From NCBI GenBank assembly GCA_016763855.1, contig JAESSY010000148.1, forward strand, positions 62,001-126,000: DNA of 64,000 nucleotides, given 5' to 3'. The position numbers and the translations under genes are program-made. Position 1 is the stretch's first letter; every line of letters begins with the position of its first letter. Positions 203-5,046 of the stretch are shown piece by piece. The notes under the pieces were generated by a model that was given only the letters and a program-made list of their open reading frames with translations, searched no databases and had not been told where the DNA came from. Origin of the DNA: Pseudomonadales bacterium (GTDB lineage Bacteria > Pseudomonadota > Gammaproteobacteria > Pseudomonadales > Azotimanducaceae).

Positions 203-296
203 TGGCGGTAGAGGTAGGAGTCGAACCCACCAATCACCTCTTCGGCAACTCAACGGCTTTGAAGACCGCGCGCTCCACCGGGAGCGACGCTCTACC
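203..296 (-). tRNA. selC: tRNA-Sec (anticodon UCA)
   Basis: Minus strand: GGTAGAGC GT CGCTCC CGGT GGAGCG C GCGGT CTTCAAA GCCGT [22-nt variable arm] GTGGG TTCGACT CCTAC CTCTACC G CCA. 6-bp D stem with 4-nt loop, CTTCAAA anticodon loop (UCA), long variable arm, encoded CCA; same layout as E. coli selC but 1 nt shorter. Confidence 0.9.
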
Positions 297-318: not shown

Positions 319-1935
319 CTAGCTTAAGGCAGCTTCTGCAAACTCTTTAATCAATTTATAATTCGCTTTGCCGTTTGCGGCTCGCTCTAGATCATCTTTA
401 ATTAATATTCTTTTTGGGATTTTATAGGCCGCCAAATGTTCTCTTGAGAACTGCCTGAGTTCTGCTTCACTCATTGTATGTCCTTCCAGCACCTCTACAA
501 CTGCTGTTATTGATTGACCCCACTTTTCATCTGCGAGACCAACAACAAGGCAGTCACTAATACTTTCGTGACGCTTTAATGCTTCTTCTACTTCTTCCGG
601 GAAGACCTTTTCACCCGCAGTATTAATACAATTACTTCCTCTTCCCAGCAGTACTAAACTGCCGTCAGCAAGCACTTCAACATAATCCCCAGGAATAGAA
701 TATCGAGTACCATCAAAGACTTTAAAGGTACTGTCTGTTTTTGCTTGATCCTTGTAATAGCCGTCAGGAAGAAACCCTGAGACCGCGACCATGCCCTTTT
801 CTCCAGAGCCCGCAATTACTTCTGTTCCATCATCTTTAAAGACCTTACAAGCTGGCCCAAGTGTAAATTTAGCGACATCAATAGATTCATCTTTTGTCAT
901 GATTGAGGATCCCAAGCCAATCGCTTCAGAGGAGGAAAATCCATCAAGTAAAATGAGATTCTCATTGTGACGCAACAGCCCTTCTTTGACCTCACGAGTC
1001 CACATCACACCACTTGACGTTATGGCCAAAACAGAAGAAAAATCACCGAGATAATTGTTATCCAGTGCTTCCACTAAAGGTCTTGCGAAGGCATCGCCCA
1101 CAATTGAGACTGTCGTCACTTTATGCTTGTCTATTTCAGCTAGCGCAAGATTCGCCTCAAAATTTCTTGAAGTCAGCGTGATGCAGGTTCCACCACTACC
1201 CATTGCCATTAAGGCTGACAATAAACCTGTGCCATGCATTAAAGGAGGGAGTGGCAAAGCAACTGTTGGCATAGGATTGTTAGTCACACGGCCAAGATGT
1301 TCAGTTAAATCTTCACATGGCGGTATACCCATTCTTGGGTTTCCACCCGCTCCTAATACATTCCAAAGCGCATCATGACTCCACATAACACCTTTGGGCA
1401 ATCCGGTGGTTCCGCCAGTGTAAATAAACAGCTGGTCACTGGGTTCACGATTCATGTCACTTAATGCTTGTCCGTTTCCCTTACTAGCAAAATCCTCATA
1501 GGCAATCACATCTTTTAAACCAAGGGTGCCATCTTCTACCTGAACCCATTGCTTTACTTTAGGCAATTTATCCCGAATTTTAGATACTTGTTCCGCAAAC
1601 TCAGCAGAAAAAATGCAAACTGTTGCATCTGAATTGTCTAACAAATAAATGAGTTCATTTTCGATATAGCGATAGTTAACGTTTACATGAGACAAACGGG
1701 CTTTGAATCCAGCCACCATTCCCTCGGTGTATTCGGGACAATTTCGTAAATAAAATGCTATTTTGTCGCCGATTTTTGCACCGTTATCTAAGAGATTACG
1801 TGCTAGATTGTTGCTTCGGGCAGTAAATTGTTGCCAACTAACTTCGCGATCACCATGGATTAGTGCGGTACGATCACGAGGTACAGCCTCTGCAAGCGCG
1901 TCAAAAATATCCCCTAAATTCCAACTCGATGTCAC
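319..1935 (-). CDS. Acyl-CoA synthetase / AMP-dependent ligase
   Basis: IYTGGTTGLPKGVMWSHD AMP-binding motif, C-terminal GEKVFPEEVEEALK...GKANYK. Track ORF runs to 2013; GTG at 1935 preceded by GGGGG looks a better start. Confidence 0.88.
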   Translation of the reverse strand: MTSSWNLGDIFDALAEAVPRDRTALIHGDREVSWQQFTARSNNLARNLLDNGAKIGDKIAFYLRNCPEYTEGMVAGFKARLSHVNVNYRYIENELIYLLDNSDATVCIFSAEFAEQVSKIRDKLPKVKQWVQVEDGTLGLKDVIAYEDFASKGNGQALSDMNREPSDQLFIYTGGTTGLPKGVMWSHDALWNVLGAGGNPRMGIPPCEDLTEHLGRVTNNPMPTVALPLPPLMHGTGLLSALMAMGSGGTCITLTSRNFEANLALAEIDKHKVTTVSIVGDAFARPLVEALDNNYLGDFSSVLAITSSGVMWTREVKEGLLRHNENLILLDGFSSSEAIGLGSSIMTKDESIDVAKFTLGPACKVFKDDGTEVIAGSGEKGMVAVSGFLPDGYYKDQAKTDSTFKVFDGTRYSIPGDYVEVLADGSLVLLGRGSNCINTAGEKVFPEEVEEALKRHESISDCLVVGLADEKWGQSITAVVEVLEGHTMSEAELRQFSREHLAAYKIPKRILIKDDLERAANGKANYKLIKEFAEAALS

Positions 1936-2039
1936 TATAATCCCCCAATAAAAATTGACAGATAATAGTATCAACAAGTCACATCGGATGGGCAAGTGTT
2001 TTGTGGCTTGCAAAAACTAGAACGTAAACACCTTAACGT

Positions 2040-2877: not shown

Positions 2878-5046
2878 TTAGGCAGAGAGTCGAATCCCGG
2901 TTCCTTCATCAACATAACCAATACAGGCGGTTGCGGGATAGCCAGCAGCTTTAAGCTGAGCTATCAAAACATCCTTTTTGGATTCTGAAACACCGACTAA
3001 CAAGCCTCCGGATGTTTGTGGGTCGAATAAAAAAGGATAACTTTGATGGCTGGATTCAATCATAGGAGACAGCGCATTTTGATTGGCATCATGCAAGGTG
3101 CTCTTAATATGCTGATCATGAAATAGCGAACTTGCACCCTTCATTATCGGCAATGAATCAAGGTTCAATGTCGCCCCTTTCTTCGATGAAATTAACATTT
3201 CAGTCAAGTGACCCCCTAAGCCGAATCCCGTTACATCCGTGCCACTAACCACACCGGCATCACGAATAATCTGCGCCGCTCTTTTATTCGATAACGTCAT
3301 CGAAGCAATTGCCGCTGCAATCCATTCTCCCTTGGCTTTAAATTGCATATCCGCAGCAAAAAGAACGCCAGTTCCCAATGCTTTCGTCAAGACCAAAGCA
3401 TCACCCACCTTAAGCTTGGACTTCTGAATCAACTCAGATTCTGATACCAGACCATTGACAGCAAAGCCAATCGATAACTCCAGCCCCTCACTCGTGTGAC
3501 CGCCCACAAGCGCTAACCCTTCTGAATCAAAAATCTTTTTTGCACCTAATAGTAGTTGTTTCAGTATCCCTTTAACAAATCGAGGCTTACCATAAGGCAC
3601 TGTGATGGTGACGAGTGCCGTTGCCCCTTCGCCACCCATAGCATAGATATCACTTAAAGCATGATGAGCTGCAATCTGAGCAAAAATAAAGGGGTCATCG
3701 ATAAACGATTTAAATGAATCTACGGTGTGAAGCATCAATTTTCCGGTCGGTACTGAAAAAATAGCAGCATCGTCCAATTGTCCCTGACTCAGATCTAGCT
3801 CACTGAGCACTTCACTCAAAATATCCGCTGAGACTTTTGAACCACAACCGCCACATCTCATCTGTTCATTAAATTCAGACAATAATCCACTTTGCCTCTT
3901 AACTTTCATCTTAGGGAGTTGAGTGAATCTATTCATAAATTTTGTGTCTATCCAGTTCTTCCACAGCCACACAGATTTACCCGACACGCTCAGACCATAT
4001 TTTGATGCTACGGCATATTTTCTGCCTATTGACAATAAGGACAAAAATGTCTTTTGCGGCGTAAAGGCAATCAATGTTTTATCAAGCAAAAGCCGTTTGA
4101 TGTTCTTATACAGGATAGGTCCCTGACGAACTGCATAAACACCTGCCTTTGGTCTGGGGTGGGAGATGACATGGGCAACATCGCCAGCTGCAAATATGTT
4201 GTCGTATTGCTCCACCTGTAAAGTCTCCCGAACACGCAAAAATCCGTTGTCATCTACAGGCAATGTTGTATCACCCAACCAGGATTGTGAAGCTGCGGCT
4301 GTTACCCAAAATATTTCATCTAGTTTGAATTGATCCCCGGACTCCGAGATCAATAAATTCGATTTTACTGCCTGTATTCTGCAATCTACATGAATCGTAA
4401 TACCGGCATCCTTTACTAATGCAGAAATTTTATTCTGGATATTTGTCGGATAGGTCTTAAGAATATGGTCATCAGCGGTAAATAAATGAACTTTTGCAGA
4501 GCTTGAGCTTGAGTATAACTGTTGTACGCGATGATTTACGGCTAACGCGAGTTCAACTCCACCGGCTCCAGCACCCACCACACCGATAATATCGGTGTCC
4601 TTAACTCTGGATAAATATCGATCCCATTGCTGTAAAAATTGGCCAATTGGTTTAACCGGCAACACATGCTCAGTAGCGCCGGGAACAGATTCCAATGAAG
4701 GCGTGATACCGACATCAATAGATAGTACATCATATTGAATATCGGGCCAGTTTTCGCAACTCACCAATTGATTCAAAGCATCAATGTCATGAACGCGGCT
4801 TTGAATAAACCTGACATTAGCAAATCGGCACAAAGGAATAAGATCAATATGAATATCTTCGGCTTGATAGTGTCCCGCCACAACACCGGGTAGCATCCCT
4901 GAATATGGCGTCAGTATATCCGGGCTAATCAGTGTTACTTTTAATCCAGGAATCGGATTCATCGCCAACATTTTTAATGTTATGACGTGGCTGTGCCCAC
5001 CGCCCACTAACACTAATTCTTTTGCAATTGGGAATAAATCCATCAT
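2878..5046 (-). CDS. selD: FAD/NAD(P)-dependent oxidoreductase fused to selenide, water dikinase (SelD)
   Basis: N-terminal VLVGGGHSHV, GAGAGGVELAL, FAAGDVA (NDH-2-like); C-terminal MRCGGCGSKVSADIL, DDAAIF, GGHTSEG, VTGFGLGGHL, DPQTSGGLL (SelD). Confidence 0.92.
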   Translation of the reverse strand: MMDLFPIAKELVLVGGGHSHVITLKMLAMNPIPGLKVTLISPDILTPYSGMLPGVVAGHYQAEDIHIDLIPLCRFANVRFIQSRVHDIDALNQLVSCENWPDIQYDVLSIDVGITPSLESVPGATEHVLPVKPIGQFLQQWDRYLSRVKDTDIIGVVGAGAGGVELALAVNHRVQQLYSSSSSAKVHLFTADDHILKTYPTNIQNKISALVKDAGITIHVDCRIQAVKSNLLISESGDQFKLDEIFWVTAAASQSWLGDTTLPVDDNGFLRVRETLQVEQYDNIFAAGDVAHVISHPRPKAGVYAVRQGPILYKNIKRLLLDKTLIAFTPQKTFLSLLSIGRKYAVASKYGLSVSGKSVWLWKNWIDTKFMNRFTQLPKMKVKRQSGLLSEFNEQMRCGGCGSKVSADILSEVLSELDLSQGQLDDAAIFSVPTGKLMLHTVDSFKSFIDDPFIFAQIAAHHALSDIYAMGGEGATALVTITVPYGKPRFVKGILKQLLLGAKKIFDSEGLALVGGHTSEGLELSIGFAVNGLVSESELIQKSKLKVGDALVLTKALGTGVLFAADMQFKAKGEWIAAAIASMTLSNKRAAQIIRDAGVVSGTDVTGFGLGGHLTEMLISSKKGATLNLDSLPIMKGASSLFHDQHIKSTLHDANQNALSPMIESSHQSYPFLFDPQTSGGLLVGVSESKKDVLIAQLKAAGYPATACIGYVDEGTGIRLSA

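Follow-up and report, generated by a model that had tools for sequence, protein, structure and literature searches.

Is a tRNA-Sec gene whose acceptor stem is one base pair short a broken gene, a sequencing error or a normal form of the molecule? The question is raised by a locus near the start of a 64,000-nucleotide stretch of DNA, the whole of which is called the window here. Our answer is that it is almost certainly a functional Sec tRNA of a marine gammaproteobacterium, and that it belongs to a described type with seven acceptor and five T-stem base pairs (7/5), a linker nucleotide at position 7a and a bulge at position 43a.

The tRNA-Sec gene and its fold

A sequence-only reading had placed a tRNA-Sec at 203-296 of the window, and this is borne out by two programs. 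ARAGORN calls tRNA-SeC(tca) at 204-297 on the minus strand, an offset of one base, and the Rfam model RF01852 matches 207-296 on the same strand with 64.9 bits against a gathering cut-off of 47. This is the sole match above cut-off in the genome. The elements of the gene are as follows.

203-296, minus strand: selC, tRNA-Sec(UCA), 94 nt including the encoded GCCA (ARAGORN, Rfam and sequence reading)
290-296, minus strand: acceptor stem 5' strand GGUAGAG (positions 1-7), 7/7 pairs with CUCUACC
289, minus strand: unpaired C, position 7a (fold read from the sequence)
271-286, minus strand: D-arm, 6-bp stem CGCUCC/GGAGCG and 4-nt loop CGGU (RF01852 alignment and sequence reading)
251-270, minus strand: anticodon arm CGCGGU-CUUCAAA-GCCGU(U)G with UCA anticodon and bulged U at 43a
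232-250, minus strand: variable arm, 7 bp, AGUUGCC/GGUGAUU
214-230, minus strand: T-arm GUGGG-UUCGACU-CCUAC, 5 bp, with a G.U wobble at 51-63
207-213, minus strand: acceptor stem 3' strand CUCUACC, 7 nt long where 8 is usual
203-206, minus strand: discriminator G73 and encoded CCA (sequence)

The UCA anticodon, the 6-bp D-stem, the 4-nt D-loop, the long variable arm and G73 are those of a bacterial tRNA-Sec. The acceptor/T stack has 7 + 5 = 12 bp and not the 13 bp of the canonical 8/5 subtype; C7a has no partner and forms, with G8 and U9, the linker between the acceptor 5' strand and the D-stem. The element-by-element reading thus agrees with the earlier claims of a 3' acceptor strand of 7 nt, a C without a partner, a 12-bp stack and a total of 94 nt. 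The covariance model, which had been proposed as a check, aligns the 3' acceptor strand with one position missing and does not restore a standard 8/5 fold. The gene at 203-296 is a tRNA-Sec with an acceptor stem genuinely one base pair shorter than that of E. coli. Only the view that its variable arm is weak was overstated, as the arm has seven uninterrupted pairs (three of them G.U), the modal length among relatives (86 of 134 7/5 sequences). The unconstrained minimum-energy fold (-40.6 kcal/mol, against -35.4 for the cloverleaf) differs in the D/anticodon region, and the seven acceptor pairs and the T-stem pairs are present in both folds.

Conservation among relatives

Could the missing base be an error of sequencing or assembly, the true gene being a standard 8/5 tRNA-Sec? 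The draft genome is in 207 contigs, and a single indel would suffice for the effect. The relatives speak against it. RF01852 scores above cut-off in 37 of 58 relatives, and every same-family locus that was fetched and parsed has the 7-nt 3' acceptor strand. The congeners G001, G002 and G004 agree with the window tRNA in length and in the unpaired 7a. In a pattern scan of named genomes, at least 118 contigs carry the 7/5 pattern, mostly from Pseudomonadales; the matches listed include Halieaceae, SAR92/Porticoccaceae, Pseudohongiella, K189A and OM182 of that order, some Alphaproteobacteria and Steroidobacter, and the isolates Seongchinamella sediminis and HTCC2080. The comparison with selC of relatives suggested earlier therefore finds the same 7/5 length in congeners and in more than 100 independent assemblies. 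Since relatives share this length, the error reading is rejected as scarcely credible. Judged by their sequences, nearly all relatives of the source organism share the 7/5 variant.

The fetched loci give a closer view of the variant. Among them 199 were parsed, giving 158 distinct tRNAs (134 are 7/5 and 24 are 8/5), and 7 loci remained unparsed. All 134 distinct 7/5 sequences have the acceptor paired 7/7 with zero mismatches, for example GGAAGCG/CGCUUCC, GGUAGAA/UUCUACC and GGUAGAG/CUCUACC, and compensatory changes occur at pair 3 (A-U to U-A), pair 6 (A-U to C-G) and pair 7 (G-C to A-U). Position 7a is C, U or A and in none of the 134 is it G. The outer pair of the anticodon stem requires the 43a bulge in 134 of 134, a matching feature that also speaks against the error reading. 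Three 7/5 tRNAs (L051, L137 and L146) have C instead of A at anticodon-loop position 38 (CUUCAAC).

How is the variant distributed? When the class is sampled evenly, 8/5 is commoner, with 14 of 369 genomes against two real 7/5 cases, the window genome included. A third 7/5 match in that sample (G085) does not parse as a tRNA-Sec. Within the order, families f20, f21 and f24 are 8/5. Family f224 mixes the two forms in different genera (8/5 and 7/5, G445/G601 against G715/G765) and might serve as a natural test of the transition between them. The order-level relative G622 has two tRNA-Sec-like genes, at C1:2693448 and 2702022, 8.6 kb apart and identical over the printed part; the one that was fetched (L190) does not parse as a plain 7/5 or 8/5 fold. 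On a tree of SelA the 7/5 label clusters, with 2 changes against a mean of 9.0 when shuffled, and none of 500 shuffles is as low. As the tree groups the 7/5 genomes, the trait is inherited together with the Sec machinery and not scattered. There may have been a single origin of the 7/5 type, on a tree that is poorly resolved at depth.

Selenocysteine machinery and probable function of the tRNA

Then is the tRNA still in use? One may suppose a degenerate tRNA-Sec, or pseudogene, in an organism which no longer uses Sec. Its bit score is below that of most relatives, and formate dehydrogenase, a candidate selenoprotein which we rejected, carries Cys at the usual Sec site. Against this, the gene encodes G73 and CCA and has every arm intact, and selA, selB and selD are intact as well. 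The selA gene (C12:14971) adjoins selB (C12:16122) on contig C12, and selC lies on contig C115, apart from both. Two minus-strand genes near selC in the window are the following.

319-2013, minus strand: ORF of the AMP-binding kind, acyl-CoA synthetase-like, whose end lies 22 bp upstream of selC in the same orientation (of interest as gene context alone)
2878-5046, minus strand: 722-aa fusion of selD with an FAD/NAD oxidoreductase-like domain, 2.6 kb upstream of selC in the same orientation (translation read by eye)

The oxidoreductase-like domain stands at the N-terminus of the fusion, and the active site of its SelD part, as read from the translation, has Cys and not Sec. A homologue of the fusion is found near selC in L062, L087 and L098, and the AMP-binding ORF also neighbours selC in L037 and L088. 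Of the 116 named 7/5 loci among the matches listed, 57 have selA or selB close to selC (fetched stretch of at most 8 kb), and SelA is present in 30 of 30 tRNA-Sec-bearing genomes tested. About 7 kb upstream of selC, on C115 upstream of the window, translations point to an IS66-like transposase cluster (L170 3180-5519).

The genome has, besides SelA, SelB and SelD, a UGA-containing selenoprotein gene. It is a SelW-type gene (Rdx, PF10262) of 79 aa at G000:C187:58817-59026 (L257 1498-1737, plus strand), whose single in-frame TGA falls at the redox motif CAQU (CxxU) in MKIEIHYCAQUNYEPEA. A SECIS-like hairpin after this UGA folds no better than shuffled sequences (z = 0.16). The SelL-like AhpC-TSA_2 family (PF13911) was sought and is absent. 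Within the window, a readthrough scan for selenoprotein genes gave only trivial end or N-terminal extensions, at four ORFs. With the Sec machinery intact and a UGA-containing selW, the pseudogene reading is very improbable.

Another reading is that the molecule is an allo-tRNA or inserts serine and is not a true tRNA-Sec, for allo-tRNAs also have a 12-bp branch. They are defined by an 8/4 or 9/3 acceptor/T arrangement (PMC7609411), and the window tRNA has the 7/5 layout and a UCA anticodon, in a genome whose Sec machinery is complete. We consider this reading exceedingly improbable. Because of the adjoining selA and selB, the selD fusion at 2.6 kb and a selW with an in-frame UGA, the window tRNA is very probably a functional tRNA-Sec. 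Our direct observations are the sequence, the conservation of its structure, the co-occurrence of selA, selB and selD, and the UGA-containing selenoprotein gene. As for the pathway, we infer that SerRS would charge the tRNA with serine, guided by G73 and the long variable arm; the cognate SelA would turn Ser-tRNA into Sec-tRNA via the 6-bp D-stem, and the cognate SelB would bring it to UGA codons such as that of the SelW-type selenoprotein. The shorter stack is an inherited trait of the lineage, which the cognate SelA and SelB would tolerate.

Possible EF-Tu avoidance and comparison with known systems

How might a tRNA of ordinary 12-bp length avoid EF-Tu? In E. coli tRNA-Sec the pairs which reject EF-Tu are C7-G66, G49.U65 and C50-G64 (PMC9976931). 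These are absent from the window tRNA, which has G7-C66, G49-C65, U50-A64 and G51.U63 instead. EF-Tu affinity is set by the pairs 49-65, 50-64 and 51-63 (PMC4499158). Of the 53 7/5 sequences whose fetching left the T-stem unconstrained, 50 have a wobble (G.U or U.G) at 51-63; among 24 8/5 sequences 1 does. Being related, the sequences do not give independent counts. It is conceivable, though rather unlikely, that the rejecting signal moved to the 51-63 wobble in the 7/5 lineage; if so, this wobble would let the shorter tRNA still avoid EF-Tu. Moreover, a G at 7a is never seen; it could form a pair with C65, in competition with the T-stem. The 51-63 wobble and the absence of G at 7a are one small possible novelty of this analysis.

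What does the locus mean more generally? In itself it has little significance, being a confirmation that 7/5 is normal in these bacteria. The 7/5 form is standard in a large marine gammaproteobacterial group (Halieaceae, Porticoccaceae/SAR92, Pseudohongiella, K189A and relatives), and the textbook 8/5 rule is therefore unfit for calling such genes defective. Selenoprotein engineering, which wants a 12-bp branch for compatibility with EF-Tu (PMC10778597, PMC11231383), may also profit from the large natural stock of 12-bp tRNA-Sec with their SelA and SelB.

The surprise implied by the sequence-only reading does not hold, since the 7/5 structure was already described in 2017. Santesmasses et al. 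(PMC5330540) described a 12-bp (7/5) stack in 47 bacterial tRNA-Sec. Some of these, from Alpha- and Gammaproteobacteria, carry an additional nucleotide 7a and lack an acceptor bulge; a 43a bulge in the anticodon stem was common, not universal. The window tRNA likewise has a 7-bp acceptor, 7 nt from T-stem to G73, the nucleotide 7a, no acceptor bulge, the 43a bulge and a gammaproteobacterial host (S2 Fig column D of that paper). Because all these features are present, it is a further example of the described type. The known cases are mostly in selABC operons, which is usual for the 7a subtype and not defining, whereas here selC is separate from selAB and has selD in its neighbourhood; otherwise there is no essential difference. 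According to reviews, a 12-bp branch is also what SelA of Aeromonas salmonicida recognises (PMC10778597, PMC11231383), and one of them has the Cys codon UGU recoded as Sec in that species (PMC10778597). The window tRNA shares the 12-bp branch and the gammaproteobacterial host, a likeness by description and not by tRNA sequence, but its anticodon is UCA for UGA. Finally, E. coli selC (8/5) has the same layout of D-arm, anticodon loop, long variable arm and G73-CCA, while its acceptor has an eighth pair and its anticodon stem lacks the 43a bulge; the window tRNA is the reverse on both.
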